The notes below the pieces were generated by a model, which was not told the DNA's origin, ran no database searches, and saw only the letters and a list, made by a program, of their open reading frames with translations. The position numbers were made by a program, and so were the translations under genes. Below, in pieces: positions 1 to 5,533 of a stretch of 5,570 nucleotides of DNA. The stretch's first letter is position 1, and each line of letters opens with the position of its first letter. This DNA comes from an uncultured Dyadobacter sp. (lineage in GTDB: Bacteria > Bacteroidota > Bacteroidia > Cytophagales > Spirosomataceae): the NCBI GenBank assembly GCA_946481035.1, contig CAMLNK010000337.1, forward strand, positions 1-5,570, read 5' to 3'.

Positions 1-206
1 ATGACCGCGTGATGGAGAAAAGTGATTTTTATAATAAGGGTGTCAAAACGCGCCACGCCGACGAATACACCATGAGCCCCTACCACGTGTTGTGGCCGAT
101 TCCGCAATCGGCGATCGACGGGAATACGCAGGGGAGGATCAACCAGAACAAGGGATATTCGGGCTATGAGAAGAATGTGCCGCCGCTGACGGAAATCCCG
201 AAATAA
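1..206 (+). CDS. SusD/RagB family nutrient-binding outer membrane lipoprotein, C-terminal fragment (5' truncated)
   Basis: This is the 3' end of a gene that starts outside the window; the reading frame is already open at base 3 and ends with TAA at 204-206, giving 67 visible codons. SusD-like proteins are surface lipoproteins that capture glycans and pass them to a SusC TonB-dependent transporter. The typical SusD C-terminal signature is visible: a segment reading HVLWPIPQSAIDGN, followed by a conserved INQNKGY and a short tail ending in EIPK. In the family this W-P-I-P...I-D-x-N...Q-N-x-G-Y block lies close to the C-terminus, so the end is probably natural. A susC partner is expected upstream by family convention but is not in view. 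The position directly before secreted sugar enzymes suggests a glycan-uptake locus. The GTG at base 9 is an internal codon, not a start. The family assignment is firm; the substrate is unknown. Confidence 0.9.
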   Translation, partial: DRVMEKSDFYNKGVKTRHADEYTMSPYHVLWPIPQSAIDGNTQGRINQNKGYSGYEKNVPPLTEIPK

Positions 207-214
207 ATTTACAT

Positions 215-250
215 GCAATGACCCGTAGATAACGGGTCATTGCTGTTTTA
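215..250 (+). terminator. Stem-loop after susD-like gene, probable (perhaps partial) intrinsic terminator
   Basis: A perfect 12-bp inverted repeat, GCAATGACCCGT at 215-226 and ACGGGTCATTGC at 232-243, encloses the 5-nt loop AGATA. It starts 8 nt after the stop codon of the susD-like gene. The following tract, TGTTTTA, contains only four consecutive T residues, so termination may be incomplete. A leaky terminator would let some transcription continue into the enzyme genes; that is inference. Confidence 0.75.
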
Positions 251-294
251 TATCGTCTGGGAGTTATGGATTTTTACCTTAATCTAAACCTGAA

Positions 295-1191
295 ATGAAC
301 AGACGGAATTTTCTGCAAAACACTTCACTGGCCATGGCCGCTATCGTCGCCGGAGCCGGTTGGCTCGAAGCCGCAATAAAAAAGGGGGATATTAAAATCG
401 GCTATTCGGCCATTACCTGGGGCGGAAAAGACGAACAAGCCATGGCTGATCTGGCCGGGCTGGGCTTCAAGGGCATTCAGTTGCGGGCCAATACCTTTGC
501 ACCATACCGTAGCAAGCCTTCCGAATTGAAAGAGGCGTTGGCAAAGAACAACCTTACGCTTTGCATGTTTTCGAGCGGAAATGTAGAGATCGATCCTGCC
601 AAATTCGAAAGTACCGTGGATACGCACGTAGCACACGCAAGTTTTGTGAAAGCGTTGGGCGGTAGTGCGATGCAGCTTACGAACAGCCTTCGCCCGAAAG
701 ACCGCGCGCCGTCCGTGGAAGAATTGAAAAAGCTGGCGCAGGTGATGAATGAGGTAGGTAAGCAAACGGCGGATCTGGGTGTGCAGGCAGTTTATCATAA
801 TCACATGAACCAGCTCGGTGAAACACCCGAGGAAGTGGATGTGATCGTGCAGGCAATGGACCCGCGTTATATTAAACTGTTACTCGACATCGCGCATTAC
901 AAGCAGGGCGGCGGCGAGCCGCACGAGGCGATTTTGAAATACAAGGATATTTTGCATTCATTGCATTTGAAAGATACCAAACCGGCCGAGACCAAAAGCG
1001 GCTATAAGTTTGTGGAATTGGGACAGGGTAGGGTGGATGTTCCCGCGGTTTTCAAGGCATTGGACAAAGTGAAGTTCAAAGGCTGGGCTGTGGTGGAGCT
1101 CGACGGCGTGCCCGACCCGGAGAAGTCACCGCTGATTTGCGCGGAAATCAATAAAAAATACATTACCGAGGTTTTAAAATATCCGGTGTAG
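295..1191 (+). CDS. Tat-exported TIM-barrel sugar phosphate isomerase/epimerase family protein (xylose isomerase-like)
   Basis: A 298-residue protein with a twin-arginine signal at its N-terminus (RRNFLQ at residues 3-8, then an Ala/Gly-rich hydrophobic stretch to about residue 27), so it is probably exported folded to the periplasm. The rest resembles the xylose isomerase-like TIM-barrel superfamily (IolE, hydroxypyruvate isomerase and related epimerases or lyases). Recognisable strands include IKIGYSAITW (33-42), LGFKGIQLR (56-64), AVYHNHM (165-171), LLLDIAH (195-201), LHLKD (223-227) and GWAVVELD (263-270). By family analogy H168/H170, D198, H224 and E268 are candidate metal or active-site residues. 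The gene follows a susD-like gene and precedes a DUF1080 gene, so a role on keto-sugars or keto-glycosides (lyase, hydratase or epimerase) is more plausible than sugar phosphate chemistry. The ATG at 295 places the RR motif directly at the N-terminus, supporting this start. The exact reaction is not known. Confidence 0.88.
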   Translation: MNRRNFLQNTSLAMAAIVAGAGWLEAAIKKGDIKIGYSAITWGGKDEQAMADLAGLGFKGIQLRANTFAPYRSKPSELKEALAKNNLTLCMFSSGNVEIDPAKFESTVDTHVAHASFVKALGGSAMQLTNSLRPKDRAPSVEELKKLAQVMNEVGKQTADLGVQAVYHNHMNQLGETPEEVDVIVQAMDPRYIKLLLDIAHYKQGGGEPHEAILKYKDILHSLHLKDTKPAETKSGYKFVELGQGRVDVPAVFKALDKVKFKGWAVVELDGVPDPEKSPLICAEINKKYITEVLKYPV

Positions 1192-1207
1192 TCCGAACTG
1201 GATTTGT

Positions 1208-1269
1208 AGGGGTATTCTTATTAATATTTCGTTATTACTGTAATAACTGATATTAGATAGGATACCCTT
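1208..1269. repeat. Long imperfect palindrome (nested stem-loop) between TIM-barrel and DUF1080 genes
   Basis: Nearly the whole 62-nt segment can fold into one hairpin. The outer stem pairs GGGTATTCT (1210-1218) with AGGATACCC (1259-1267), with one G-U wobble. A 2x2 mismatch follows, then TAATAT (about 1222-1227) pairs with ATATTA (1250-1255), then a 3x2 internal loop, then GTTATTA (1231-1237) pairs perfectly with TAATAAC (1241-1247) around a CTG loop. It begins 16 nt after the upstream stop and ends 38 nt before the next start. No long T tract follows it directly. It could be a terminator or processing hairpin, a 5'-UTR structure of the DUF1080 gene, an operator, or a small repeat element. 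Confidence 0.6.
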
Positions 1270-1307
1270 TCGCATTTTTCAGTTATTCATCATCTTTATT
1301 CAACACA

Positions 1308-2675
1308 ATGAAAAAATTTAGATTACCGCTGGTCGCGATGGCCGCGTTCCTCCTTAGCGCTCCGCTCCAAGCCCAGAAGTCGAAAGATGGTTGGGTAGAT
1401 CTGTTCAATGGCAAGGACCTGACAGGCTGGAAACAACTCAACGGCCAGGCGAAATATGAAGTGAAAGACGGGGCCATTGTGGGGACTTCCGTGATGGGCA
1501 CGCCCAACTCATTCCTGACAACTGAAAAAGATTACGGTGATTTTATCCTCGAACTCGATGTAAAAGTGGACAATAAGTTGAATTCGGGCATTCAGATCCG
1601 CAGCTTGTCGAAGCCTGAGTATATGAATGGCCGTGTGCATGGATACCAGGTGGAGATCGATCCCAGCGACCGTGCATACTCCGCAGGTATTTATGACGAA
1701 GCACGCCGCGGCTGGCTCTATCCGCTCGATTTGAATCCCGAAGGTAAAAAGGCATTCAAAAGAGATGCATGGAACAAATACCGCATCGAAGCGATCGGCA
1801 ATTCGATCCGCACATTTCTGAATGGTGTGCCTGTGGCGCACGTGGTGGATGATATGACGCCTGTGGGCTTCATATGCCTGCAAGTGCACGCGATCGGCAG
1901 CAAGGAAATGGAAGGTACGCAGGTGAGCTGGAAAAATGTGCGCATTAAAACTGCGAACCTGAAACCGAGTCCTGCAACGAATGTTCGCATTGTGAACCTG
2001 ATCCCGAACAATCTTGATGCTGCGGAAAAGGCGCAGGGATATTCATTACTATATGACGGAAAATCGGTGGACCAATGGCGGTCATACGGCGGCACGGAGT
2101 TCCCGGCCAAAAGATGGAACTATCAGGACGGTACTATTCAGATTTCCAAATCCGACGGCTCCGAGACGGGCAACGATATTGTTACCCGCAAGCTTTACGG
2201 CCCTGCTTTCGAGTATGAATTTGAGTTTAAACTAACCGAAGGTGCCAATAGCGGCGTCAAATACTTTGTTGATCAGAAGTTTAACTCCAACGGTAAATCG
2301 GGTATCGGCTGCGAGTACCAGGTGCTCGACGACGAGCGCCACCCGGATGCGAAGCTGGGCAAAAATGGCAACCGTACTATCGCTTCGTTTTATGATGTGA
2401 TTCCTGCGAACCGTCCGAAGAATGCTGTGAAAAAGATCGGTGAATGGAACCAGGGCCGCATTGTGGTGCAAAAAGACGGTACCGTGCAGCATTTCCTCAA
2501 TGGCTATAAAGTGGTAGAATATGTGCGCGGCTCTCCCCAGTTCAAGGAGTTCGTGGCAGGTTCGAAGTTTGCCAAATTCGAAGGTTTTGGTCTTTCACAG
2601 GAAGGCAACCTGCTCTTGCAGGATCACGGCGACAATGTGTTTTTCCGCAGTTTAAAAGTAAAGGAGATCAAATAG
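1308..2675 (+). CDS. Secreted tandem DUF1080 protein (3-keto-disaccharide hydrolase family, PF06439), two domains
   Basis: A 455-residue protein with a Sec signal peptide (MKK, hydrophobic core, probable cleavage near LQA at residues 20-22). No lipobox cysteine is seen, so it is predicted to be soluble and periplasmic. It contains two DUF1080 jelly-roll domains in tandem. Domain 1 (about 27-214) shows WVDLFNGKDLTGW (29-41), NSGIQIRS (92-99), HGYQVEID (111-118), FLNGVPVAHV (170-179) and GFICLQVH (187-194). Domain 2 (about 243-453) shows the matching LLYDGKSVDQW (247-257), NSGVKYFVDQ (314-323), CEYQVLDD (335-342), HFLNGYKVVEY (395-405) and LLLQDHGDNVFFRSLKVKE (435-453). A linker with Pro and Asn residues (about 215-242) joins them. 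DUF1080 proteins act on 3-keto-glycosides in oxidation/elimination/hydration glycan breakdown. Many family members have a single domain of roughly 200-250 residues, so the tandem form is notable. The ATG at 1308 starts the signal peptide, and no Shine-Dalgarno is seen, as usual in Bacteroidota. Confidence 0.92.
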   Translation: MKKFRLPLVAMAAFLLSAPLQAQKSKDGWVDLFNGKDLTGWKQLNGQAKYEVKDGAIVGTSVMGTPNSFLTTEKDYGDFILELDVKVDNKLNSGIQIRSLSKPEYMNGRVHGYQVEIDPSDRAYSAGIYDEARRGWLYPLDLNPEGKKAFKRDAWNKYRIEAIGNSIRTFLNGVPVAHVVDDMTPVGFICLQVHAIGSKEMEGTQVSWKNVRIKTANLKPSPATNVRIVNLIPNNLDAAEKAQGYSLLYDGKSVDQWRSYGGTEFPAKRWNYQDGTIQISKSDGSETGNDIVTRKLYGPAFEYEFEFKLTEGANSGVKYFVDQKFNSNGKSGIGCEYQVLDDERHPDAKLGKNGNRTIASFYDVIPANRPKNAVKKIGEWNQGRIVVQKDGTVQHFLNGYKVVEYVRGSPQFKEFVAGSKFAKFEGFGLSQEGNLLLQDHGDNVFFRSLKVKEIK

Positions 2676-2717
2676 CCCGAATCGGCGGAAAAAAGGTAAA
2701 AAAATACAGTAGATAAG

Positions 2718-2748
2718 CGGGCGTCCGACATTTACAGTCGATTGCCCG
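2718..2748 (+). other. Imperfect stem-loop in the DUF1080-Gfo/Idh intergenic gap
   Basis: The arms 2718-2729 (CGGGCGTCCGAC) and 2737-2748 (GTCGATTGCCCG) pair with five G-C pairs plus a G-U at the base, a 2x2 mismatch, and four pairs at the top around the loop ATTTACA. The structure is not followed by a T tract, so it is not a standard intrinsic terminator. It sits 53 nt before the next start codon and could influence mRNA processing or stability. The 126-bp gap otherwise shows only an A-rich stretch (about 2690-2706) and no clear promoter. Confidence 0.35.
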
Positions 2749-2801
2749 GAAATCTGACCCAAAGGCAATCAAAACGTCAACTTTTATTCAAATCCAATAT
2801 C

Positions 2802-4142
2802 ATGACCAGTAGAAGGGATTTTCTTAAAAATGCAGCACTGGCTTCTGCGGGTGTCGCAGTAGGCACCAATGCTTTCAGTGCGGCCAGCTACCGCCGTATC
2901 GTGGGAGCGAATGATCGCGTAAGGGTAGGTATCATCGGTTTCTCGGACCGTTTCCGCAGCTCGCTGGCACCTTCTTTCTCGGATCACGCCAAGGAACTGA
3001 ACTTTGAGTTTATGGGCGTTTCCGACCTTTGGAACCGTCGCCGCGACGAAGCGGAGGCATTCATGAAAGGCAAGCCTTATGCAGCGAGCGAATTTGTAAA
3101 AGCACGCAATAATGAGGAATTGCTCGGACGCAAGGATGTGGACGCGGTGATCATCAGTACAGCAGATTTCCAGCACGCATTGCATTGCGCGGAAGCCGTG
3201 AAGTCGGGCCGTGATGTGTATGTTGAAAAGCCATTTGCAGAAACCCTTGAAGATGCGAAAGTGGCATTGAAAGCGGTGGAAGCGTCGAAACAGATTGTAC
3301 AAGTAGGCTCGCAGCGCCGCAGCGCTCCCAACTACTGGGCGGCTTATGAATATATCAAATCGGGTAAATTCGGGGATATTACCACGGTAGAAATGACCTG
3401 GAATGTGAACCAGCCGGGCCGTTGGAGACGTAAGGAGCTCGTGTCGCAGATCCGCAAAGAGGATACCGACTGGGACCGCTTCCTGATGAACCGTCCGAAA
3501 GTAGCGTGGAACCCGCGCTACTATCTCGAATTCCGCCTGTTCTACCCCTATTCATCAGGTATTCCGGGACAATGGATGGCCCACCAGATCGATACGGTAC
3601 ACTGGTTTTCAGGCCTCGACGCGCCGCGTAACGTAGTTGCCAACGGTGGTATTTACACCTGGAAAGATGGTCGTACCAATGTCGATACTTTCAGCGCGGC
3701 ATTCGAATACGGTCCGTTCGACGATAAGAGCAAAGGCTTCCAGGTAATTTATTCTTCCCGTTTCAATAACGAGGCCGGCGGTGTGAAGGAATATTATTAC
3801 TCCAATGGCGGAATGATCAACCTCGATACGAACAAGATCACCTCCGAAGGCGGCCTGAAAGAAAAAGATGCCAAAGGAATGGGCTTACAGGCGAACCTGC
3901 TTCCTGAAATGTCATTGAAAACCGGCGATAAAATCGCGACGGATGCTAATACCGGTGCCGATCCGATGACTTCGCTGCACATGCGCAACTGGATGGAGTG
4001 TATCCGCAGCCGCAAGGAAACGAATGCACCTGCCCGCGTAGGTTTCAACCACTCCGTGGCGAACATTATGGCTACCCAGGCGTTGCACACCGGAAAACGT
4101 GTGAACTGGGATCCCAAGAAAAAGGAAATCGTGCTTAGCTAA
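2802..4142 (+). CDS. Tat-exported Gfo/Idh/MocA family oxidoreductase (probable glycoside/sugar dehydrogenase)
   Basis: A 446-residue protein when started at the ATG at 2802, which puts the twin-arginine motif RRDFLKN at residues 4-10, followed by an Ala/Gly-rich hydrophobic segment to about residue 29. A TTG 60 bases upstream would only add a charged extension before the Tat motif and is unlikely. The N-terminal Rossmann fold (about 39-165) starts at RVRVGIIGF (39-47) and includes DAVIISTADFQHA (114-126) and the family EKP motif (VEKPF, 141-145; K143 is the usual catalytic lysine). The C-terminal domain carries MAHQIDTVHWFSG (259-271), where H261 and D264 align with the H-x-x-D pair of the family. 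The nucleotide motif is unusual: G46-F-S-D-R-F51 replaces canonical GxGxxG. Related exported enzymes oxidise or reduce sugars using tightly bound NAD(H). In this locus it is the likely enzyme forming or reducing the 3-keto-glycoside. The substrate is unknown. Confidence 0.92.
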   Translation: MTSRRDFLKNAALASAGVAVGTNAFSAASYRRIVGANDRVRVGIIGFSDRFRSSLAPSFSDHAKELNFEFMGVSDLWNRRRDEAEAFMKGKPYAASEFVKARNNEELLGRKDVDAVIISTADFQHALHCAEAVKSGRDVYVEKPFAETLEDAKVALKAVEASKQIVQVGSQRRSAPNYWAAYEYIKSGKFGDITTVEMTWNVNQPGRWRRKELVSQIRKEDTDWDRFLMNRPKVAWNPRYYLEFRLFYPYSSGIPGQWMAHQIDTVHWFSGLDAPRNVVANGGIYTWKDGRTNVDTFSAAFEYGPFDDKSKGFQVIYSSRFNNEAGGVKEYYYSNGGMINLDTNKITSEGGLKEKDAKGMGLQANLLPEMSLKTGDKIATDANTGADPMTSLHMRNWMECIRSRKETNAPARVGFNHSVANIMATQALHTGKRVNWDPKKKEIVLS

Positions 4143-4161
4143 CATTTTAAAAGATCGTACA

Positions 4162-5199
4162 GTGAATTTAAAACATACTGCTTTGGCACTGACCGCCGTG
4201 GCCTTTGCCGGAAGTGCTTTTGCGCAGAAGGTGGATCTCGTCCGGAATGATAAGGACAAAAAAGTGGAGGTGAAAATCGACGGGAAGCCATTTACGGCAT
4301 ACTATTACCCCGGCGAACAAAAGCTGAAAAAGGCTGTCCTGTACCCGGTAATGACCGCCAAAGGCACGGTAATTACCCGTGGATGGCCGCTGGACCCTCG
4401 CGCAGGTGAGCGCGTAGACCACCCGCACCACGTGGGGATCTGGCTCAACTATGAGGATGTGAATGGTAACGACTATTGGAATAACTCCGATGCCGTGAAC
4501 CACGAAAAACGTGCTTACGGGACGATTATCCATACCGGCATTACCTCCGTAAAAAGCGGTAAAGACAAGGGCGAGCTCACCGTCACCGCCGACTGGGTAG
4601 ATAAAAGCGGAACACTGACCCTGAAAGAAGTAACCAAATACACTTTCAGCGGCAAAGGCGATACCCGCATTATCGACCGCAGCACCACGCTGACGGCTGT
4701 GTTACCAGAAGTGAATATGCCCGATGTAAAGGATGGTATGTTCGCGATCCGCGTAGCACGCGAGCTGGAATTGCCTTCGAACAAACCTGAAATCTTCACC
4801 GACGCGAGCGGCATTGCGACCAAGGTGCCTGCATTGAACAACGAGGGCATTACCGGTAACTACCGCAACAGCAACGGCATCGAAGGCGAGACCGTTTGGG
4901 GCAAGCGCGCGATCTGGTGTAATCTCACAGGGAAAATCAAGGACGAAAACATCAGCGTCGCGATGATCGATCACCCCAAGAACGTCGGTTACCCGGCTTA
5001 CTGGCATGCGAGAGGTTACGGACTGTTTGCTGTGAACCCATTGGGTATGAAAGCGCTTAGCGACGGGAAGGAAACGCTCAATTTCAAACTGAAAAAAGGA
5101 GAATCGACCACGTTCCGCTACCGTCTGGTAATTGCTTCCGAGCACTTGAAAGATGCCGCGCTAAACGACCTCGCAGCAGCGTACGCGAAGACGGGATAG
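4162..5199 (+). CDS. Secreted DUF6807 ('PmoA-like') family protein, function unknown
   Basis: A 345-residue protein starting at GTG 4162, 19 nt after the stop of the oxidoreductase gene, so the two are almost certainly co-transcribed. No ATG is available nearby, and the GTG start gives a clean Sec signal peptide (NLKHTALALTAVAFAGSAFA, cleavage about residue 21-22), so the mature protein is probably periplasmic. The family hallmark is DHPHHVGIW (86-94) followed by VNGNDYW (100-106); a second conserved-looking segment is WHARGYGLFAVNPLG (281-295), and the C-terminal strand reads FRYRLVI (318-324). The clustered His and Asp residues suggest metal or carbohydrate binding, but no catalysis can be claimed. 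Databases often label these proteins 'PmoA, methane oxygenase'; there are no membrane helices beyond the signal peptide and no sign of a methane monooxygenase. Such proteins often sit in sugar-enzyme clusters of Bacteroidota and Planctomycetota, and the context here points to keto-sugar or glycoside metabolism. Confidence 0.88.
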   Translation: MNLKHTALALTAVAFAGSAFAQKVDLVRNDKDKKVEVKIDGKPFTAYYYPGEQKLKKAVLYPVMTAKGTVITRGWPLDPRAGERVDHPHHVGIWLNYEDVNGNDYWNNSDAVNHEKRAYGTIIHTGITSVKSGKDKGELTVTADWVDKSGTLTLKEVTKYTFSGKGDTRIIDRSTTLTAVLPEVNMPDVKDGMFAIRVARELELPSNKPEIFTDASGIATKVPALNNEGITGNYRNSNGIEGETVWGKRAIWCNLTGKIKDENISVAMIDHPKNVGYPAYWHARGYGLFAVNPLGMKALSDGKETLNFKLKKGESTTFRYRLVIASEHLKDAALNDLAAAYAKTG

Positions 5200-5224
5200 T
5201 TTGTATACTAGCAGATTGAAAGGG

Positions 5225-5253
5225 TAGCCAGCGACTTTTCGCTGGCTATTTTT
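5225..5253 (+). terminator. Strong Rho-independent terminator closing the enzyme operon
   Basis: A perfect 10-bp stem, TAGCCAGCGA (5225-5234) with TCGCTGGCTA (5239-5248), has a 4-nt CTTT loop and is followed directly by five T residues (5249-5253). It begins 25 nt after the stop codon of the DUF6807 gene and marks the end of the transcription unit. It has a clearly better T tract than the hairpin after the susD-like gene. Confidence 0.92.
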
Positions 5254-5389
5254 ATCCTAAAACAATCTGTCAGATGACGCATTTTGAGCATTACCAGGCC
5301 GAACAAATCGACGAATTCAATTCTTCGATGCGTTTTTGATATATCGATCATAGATGTTAACCTAACCTTGAATTTTACATTGTATTGTT
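5254..5389. other. Intergenic region with no recognisable gene
   Basis: Between the operon terminator and the small ORF, this 136-bp stretch contains only a 21-codon frame (ATG 5274 to TGA 5337-5339) with no recognisable similarity. It also contains an AT-rich segment (5336-5390) that includes the weak promoter-like pair. No RNA gene, repeat or riboswitch is apparent. Confidence 0.5.
5335..5370 (+). promoter_or_regulatory. Weak candidate Bacteroidota-type promoter upstream of the small ORF
   Basis: TTTG at 5335-5338 resembles the -33 element and TAACCTTG at 5363-5370 matches the -7 consensus TAnnTTTG except for one base. The 24-nt gap between them is longer than the usual spacing of about 19 nt, so this is weak evidence only. 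If real, transcription would start about 13 nt before the ATG at 5390. Confidence 0.25.
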
Positions 5390-5533
5390 ATGCTCATTGC
5401 AAAAATCAAAAAAGTTGAAGGGCCGGTAAAGCTACCCCGCAACTACTACGAGTTTTTCGAGAAAAAGGCTGCCGAGTCGAAAGCCTTTCTCGAAAAACAT
5501 CCGATACCGGAGGAACTCTTCAAAAAGAAATAA
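5390..5533 (+). CDS. Small hypothetical protein, 47 residues
   Basis: An ATG at 5390 opens a 47-codon frame ending at TAA 5531-5533, immediately followed by another in-frame TAA-less codon boundary and a TGA at 5537-5539 region after a short spacer. The product is highly charged and Lys/Glu-rich: it starts MLIAKIKKVEG, has VKLPRNYYEFFEKKA in the middle and ends in EELFKKK. A short strand (2-8) and a likely amphipathic helix (about 18-36) can be imagined, with no signal peptide or membrane segment. I do not recognise the family. Short charged proteins upstream of another gene can be antitoxins, but no partner can be read before the window ends. A strong inverted repeat (5453-5497) lies inside the frame, which could mean that this stretch is partly structural rather than coding. 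Confidence 0.4.
   Translation: MLIAKIKKVEGPVKLPRNYYEFFEKKAAESKAFLEKHPIPEELFKKK
5453..5497. repeat. Strong inverted repeat inside the 3' small ORF
   Basis: The left arm 5453-5470 begins TTTTTCGAGAAA and ends GGCT; the right arm 5482-5497 begins AGCC and ends TTTCTCGAAAAA. The arms pair in 16 positions with a single 2-nt A bulge (5465-5466) and an 11-nt loop (5471-5481). On the minus strand the hairpin includes a terminal T run, so it could also act as a terminator for a leftward transcript entering from the right. It partly reflects the similar peptide pieces FFEKKA and AFLEK encoded on opposite arms. Confidence 0.55.

Follow-up and report, generated by a model that had tools for sequence, protein, structure and literature searches.

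To our knowledge, glycoside breakdown by non-Koshland chemistry is known from gut bacteria and from a few operons elsewhere. The gut-bacterial pathway of oxidation, elimination, hydration and reduction was reportedly described by Nasseri et al. in Nature in 2024, and we take the structures 8tcd to 8tdh to originate from it (8tcr by its title). Here we analyzed a stretch of 5,570 nucleotides from an uncultured Dyadobacter sp. of the Cytophagales (assembly GCA_946481035.1, contig CAMLNK010000337.1, forward strand), in the following called the window. It probably carries the enzyme-coding half of an operon that is fed by SusC/SusD and serves periplasmic glycoside breakdown without a Koshland-type hydrolase. 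The gut pathway likewise uses a Gfo/Idh enzyme, a TIM barrel of the AL1-type fold and a DUF1080 enzyme and needs no hydrolase. In contrast, the window contains a Gfo/Idh and a TIM barrel protein of the twin-arginine translocation (Tat) type, only one Gfo protein, a tandem DUF1080 protein and a DUF6807 protein. Its Gfo and TIM barrel proteins are distant from the gut-pathway structures (58.9 and 29.6 bits, respectively).

Two operons elsewhere follow the same four steps according to the parts of the reports considered here. The lgdA-B1-B2-C operon of Bacillus smithii comprises a dehydrogenase, a lyase and hydratase of the sugar-phosphate-isomerase type, and a reductase of the Gfo family (PMC7676230). 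It differs from the window by its separate dehydrogenase and reductase, its two isomerase-type enzymes and its restriction to levoglucosan; its text does not mention DUF1080, and SusC/SusD were not encountered in the parts considered. The AtOGE/AtHYD/Gfo operon of Agrobacterium tumefaciens acts on flavonoid O- and C-glycosides (PMC10628242). By description it resembles the window in its TIM-barrel eliminase with Mn2+ and His, its putative hydratase, which bears the annotation of a sugar phosphate isomerase, and its Gfo reductase, whereas oxidation is performed there by another dehydrogenase, GlycDH. In the Caulobacter lactose route a putatively periplasmic DUF1080 protein (CCNA_01705) acts after C3 oxidation; there, however, the membrane-bound dehydrogenase LacABC oxidizes the sugar and, in the parts considered, no Gfo protein has that role (PMC9007349). 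The two four-step routes may serve as a pattern for assigning the steps to Gfo, TIM barrel and DUF1080 proteins (PMC7676230, PMC10628242).

The first-pass annotation of the window described a susD end followed by four co-directional exported enzymes. Pfam and profile scans confirmed all five genes on the + strand, separated by gaps of 88, 116, 126 and 19 bases:

1..206 (frame 3-203, stop 204-206), + strand: C-terminus of an outer-membrane lipoprotein of the SusD/RagB type that binds glycans (PF07980)
295..1191, + strand: IolE-like TIM barrel protein, Tat-type (PF01261); proposed metal-dependent 3-keto-glycoside lyase and/or hydratase
1308..2675, + strand: exported tandem DUF1080 protein of the 3-keto-glycoside lyase/hydratase family (PF06439; 4jqt)
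1389..1949, + strand: its N-terminal DUF1080 domain, residues 28-214 (PF06439, residue conservation)
2013..2666, + strand: its C-terminal DUF1080 domain, residues 236-453 (region of the matches to 8tda, 8rr2 and 8v31)
2802..4142, + strand: Gfo/Idh/MocA oxidoreductase, Tat-type (PF01408); proposed glycoside C3 dehydrogenase and 3-keto-sugar reductase
4162..5199, + strand: exported DUF6807 protein with a predicted galactose-mutarotase-like supersandwich fold (PF14100)

By domain family, Gfo, a lyase-type TIM barrel and DUF1080 thus stand together in one locus, as in an oxidation/elimination/hydration/reduction cluster. From this set we infer the following chemistry, its periplasmic location and a glycosidic substrate. 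The Gfo/Idh protein, exported by the Tat pathway in the folded state with its nicotinamide bound, would oxidize the glycosyl C3 to a 3-keto-glycoside. The aglycone would then be expelled by beta-elimination to yield 2-hydroxy-3-keto-glucal, by the TIM barrel protein (with metal and His, suited to beta-linkages) and by the DUF1080 enzyme (suited to alpha-linkages). DUF1080 would hydrate the glucal to the 3-keto-sugar, which the same Gfo protein, having retained its reduced cofactor, would reduce to the free sugar. The same keto-sugar is the most likely substrate of DUF6807; we would think first of the interconversion of anomers, as by a 3-keto-aldose mutarotase, and next of another lyase or hydratase activity. 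The earlier keto-glycoside reading holds in outline as the best explanation of gene identities, gene order and conserved residues. Its variant points needed correction: the tandem is not special and DUF6807 is no add-on.

The gene order was investigated in the best 80 of at least 578 confirmed stretches. These loci were found via the tandem DUF1080 protein, so that both halves are present in 80/80 by selection. The order TIM-DUF1080x2-Gfo-DUF6807 recurs in L001 (from D. fermentans JDP9, with 94-99% identity to the window protein by protein), L002 and L004-L007, while L003 is devoid of the TIM barrel gene. Consequently, the arrangement is not due to chance. Among 73 loci with at least 1500 bases downstream, a Gfo protein of at least 50% identity was found within 600 bases in 38 and anywhere in the locus in 42. 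In the 52 loci flanked on each side by 5 kb, the counts were 31 for Gfo, 13 for DUF6807, 9 for TIM, 19 for a SusC relative and 15 for a SusD relative. L071 (9989-16066) shows DUF1080x2-Gfo-DUF6807 followed by a short-chain dehydrogenase and the glucuronate isomerase UxaC; these neighbors hint at a uronide substrate in that lineage.

The SusD end was recognized by PF07980 with 25.1 bits (cut-off 23.1). Its counterpart in L001 (94% identical) is a 608-amino-acid SusD protein behind a 1065-amino-acid SusC protein; an adjacent SusC/SusD pair, typical of a polysaccharide-utilization-type locus, is thus represented in the window by the SusD end and complete in the near-identical L001. In L003 and L007 the SusC and SusD proteins adjoining the enzymes are distant ones (31-32% and 24-27% identity, respectively), yet Gfo, DUF1080 and DUF6807 are retained, which suits broad-specificity enzymes behind changing transporters. 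The earlier statement that no classical glycoside hydrolase is present is correct inside the window but not beyond it. L001 carries a gene of glycoside hydrolase family 9 (GH9) about 2.2 kb past DUF6807, GH9 matches were also found in L002, L003 and L017, and in L011 (11373-13391) and L017 (11350-13350) DUF1080x2 and Gfo are separated by a GH3 glycosidase gene. L022 and L055 contain a similar-sized gene at this GH3 position.

The longest frame of the Gfo gene starts with TTG at 2742; the ATG at 2802 yields a Tat-type protein of 446 amino acids. It was matched by TIGR01409 with 23 bits (cut-off 16.7) and by PF01408 with 58 bits. Its RR pair as well as K143 (of EKP) and D264 are kept in 64/64 aligned rows (at least 500 bits and 400 amino acids, window included). 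The glycoside 3-dehydrogenase model NF058561 (BT_2158_fam) gave 85.8 bits, below its cut-off of 750; this value was exceeded by no match in four related genomes or 14 controls. Genome G001 contains 37 matches to this model, none above cut-off, and 23 PF06439 matches; by such sequence matches its Dyadobacter species is rich in genes of keto-glycoside type. At three loci with BT_2158-like paralogues in the D. fermentans genome (L112-L114) neither the DUF1080 halves nor the TIM barrel protein of the window had a detected adjoining relative at E 1e-4.

A reductase separate from the first dehydrogenase, such as LgdC, was not found at the locus: the window has a single Gfo gene, and the 21 kb of L001 gave no second Gfo match; a reductase may be encoded elsewhere in the genome. 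A single Gfo protein at the locus would therefore have to both oxidize and reduce. We propose that it re-uses its bound cofactor in both redox steps, so that no cofactor need enter the periplasm, which would explain NAD(P) chemistry in this compartment. If true, a recurring exported version of the pathway with one Gfo protein per locus exists in Cytophagales and related Bacteroidota as a minimal redox-neutral machine.

The TIM barrel protein (298 amino acids; PF01261 with 109 bits) starts with MNRRNFL, and its RR pair is kept in 22/22 aligned rows (at least 150 bits and 250 amino acids, window included). An N-terminal RRxF motif kept in relatives was thus found for both the TIM barrel and the Gfo protein; for the former no TIGR01409 match was reported. 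The myo-inosose-2 dehydratase (IolE) model TIGR04379 matched with 105.3 bits, and IolE structures scored higher than those of epimerases. This resemblance brings up inositol-type catabolism, in which Gfo would form an inosose by oxidizing free inositol or a related cyclitol, the IolE-like protein would dehydrate this inosose, and DUF1080 and DUF6807 would serve a glycosylated, galactinol-like form. We consider this unlikely and weaker than keto-glycoside breakdown. Both model scores lay well below their cut-offs (290 for IolE, and 355), and TIM was present in 9/52 well-flanked tandem-DUF1080 loci as compared to 31/52 for Gfo. Moreover, no further iol gene was recognized among nine scanned neighbors in L001. 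In our reading the IolE match does not discriminate, since dehydration by IolE chemically resembles hydration of 2-hydroxy-3-keto-glucal. In a further scheme the TIM barrel protein would act like YcjR as a 4-epimerase of 3-keto-glycosides and DUF6807 as an anomerase, and an unusual glycoside would be remodelled before cleavage by DUF1080. It appears quite unlikely, because the structure ranking lies within a tie, IolE structures scored higher, and no epimerase model reached its cut-off.

The tandem DUF1080 protein (455 amino acids) belongs to PF06439 with 274.4 bits in two stretches (cut-off 26.8) and starts with a Sec-type signal sequence, as read by eye. The halves share 24% identity over 169 columns. 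E116, Q192 and H194 of the N-terminal and E336, Q438 and H440 of the C-terminal domain are kept in 81/81 aligned tandem rows (at least 420 bits and 420 amino acids, window included) and are candidate active-site residues for 3-keto-glycoside cleavage. An N-terminal domain that is a dead copy is not supported by this conservation. The tandem had been regarded as a variant feature; however, the solved relative 4jqt aligned over residues 28-455 of 455 (E 2.6e-153) and has two DUF1080 domains in the same order, although it is titled just "putative glycosyl hydrolase". A new architecture was rejected on the same grounds. In L149 (7950-10498) two separate single-domain DUF1080 genes beside TIM and Gfo form an unfused counterpart of the tandem; at the threshold applied, the second did not match the N-terminal half of the tandem.

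The DUF6807 protein (345 amino acids) belongs to PF14100 with 279.3 bits (cut-off 27) and starts with a Sec-type signal sequence, again as read by eye. It had been seen as an added protein but turned out to be a regular member of the Gfo/DUF1080 enzyme set. Among 194 genomes of the order, Gfo occurs in 51, DUF6807 in 47 and tandem DUF1080 in 36; 45 of the 51 Gfo genomes contain DUF6807, compared to 30 with the tandem. DUF6807 lies directly downstream of 27 of 52 Gfo matches, the tandem directly upstream of 22, and both in 10. These genome counts are descriptive because genomes share ancestry.

The predicted structure of DUF6807 resembles the galactose-mutarotase-like supersandwich well above background (families unlisted by the structure search were not counted against it). 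The aldose 1-epimerase family PF01263 did not match at E 0.01, hhalign against seven aldose epimerases of related genomes gave a probability of 0.3%, and the mutarotase active-site residues could not be placed by sequence. The fold also resembles that of lyases of polysaccharide lyase family 26 (PL26), so that DUF6807 might instead open the attack on an acidic plant glycan as a PL26-related lyase, with the other enzymes finishing the released disaccharide; this we regard as very unlikely. As an enzyme of keto-sugar conversion, DUF6807 would gain a first testable role. Tentatively, with the balance somewhat against it, DUF6807 could belong, so far unrecognized, to the standard enzymes that break down keto-glycosides in the periplasm, as a mutarotase or lyase of supersandwich fold that acts on 3-keto-sugars and is paired with a self-recycling Tat-exported Gfo protein and an exchangeable DUF1080 lyase. 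Its function and the one-Gfo cycle are the interesting remainder of this analysis. In the open PMC literature no relevant account of DUF6807 by name was found, and none joining it with DUF1080. PF14100, a family of unknown function, still carries the database label "methane oxygenase PmoA" and was used as a PmoA methane-oxidation marker in the part of PMC10291797 considered here; its predicted fold of carbohydrate-enzyme type calls for caution in such use. A Dyadobacter protein of 1301 amino acids (L115:9387-13289, contig C27 of G001) combines DUF6807 and DUF7133 with HEAT repeats and a cytochrome c domain. Lac161_ORF7, which is reported to hydrolyze lactose, likewise has HEAT and cytochrome c domains (PMC5342196).

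Thirty Gfo matches have no tandem next to them; 18 of these were examined, chosen rather than drawn at random. A single DUF1080 gene lies beside Gfo in 13 of them, matched by the C-terminal half at 95-235 bits and by the N-terminal half at no more than 45. In the remaining five the contig ends there (L138) or DUF1080 is missing (L139, L147, L148, L151). The TIM family was found in 11 of the 18 loci, DUF6807 downstream on the same strand in 12, and a SusC and/or SusD relative in 9. Trees were calculated by a quick method, and several inner forks are weak. The midpoint-rooted Gfo tree comprised 64 rows (at least 500 bits and 400 amino acids, duplicates removed; fragmentary loci, e.g. L145 and L150, left out), the C-domain tree 94 rows (minimum per piece 60 bits and about 140 residues). 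In the Gfo tree eight Dyadobacter and Rhabdobacter rows (support 99) fall inside a group of 25 rows (97) that also contains each of the 11 single-DUF1080 rows, and a tree with all tandem rows forced together was rejected (p-AU 0.0012). In the C-domain tree one branch (98) separates all 82 tandem from all 12 single domains. As aligned, the Gfo and DUF1080 sequences thus give conflicting trees: either there was at least one exchange of the lyase relative to Gfo, or the two kinds coexisted earlier and were lost in turn. It looks as if the lyase was exchanged within a SusC-SusD-TIM-DUF1080-Gfo-DUF6807 layout.

Two hairpins flank the enzyme genes:

215..243, + strand: 12-bp hairpin with T-rich tail in the gap that separates susD from the enzyme genes; may act as terminator or attenuator
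5220..5253, + strand: 15-bp hairpin with T-run downstream of the DUF6807 gene; probable end of the operon

For the first (region 213-246) a folding energy of -21.4 kcal/mol was predicted. A terminator scan of the window, whose evidence includes this hairpin, gave four terminator-like sites compared to 6.9 expected in shuffles. The second (region 5219-5262; predicted folding -21.5 kcal/mol) is absent from the scan list. No near-identity match to the window was found in plasmid records. A short frame of 47 amino acids at 5390-5533, without Pfam match, resembles a stretch at L001:14509, with about 60% of 43 residues identical.
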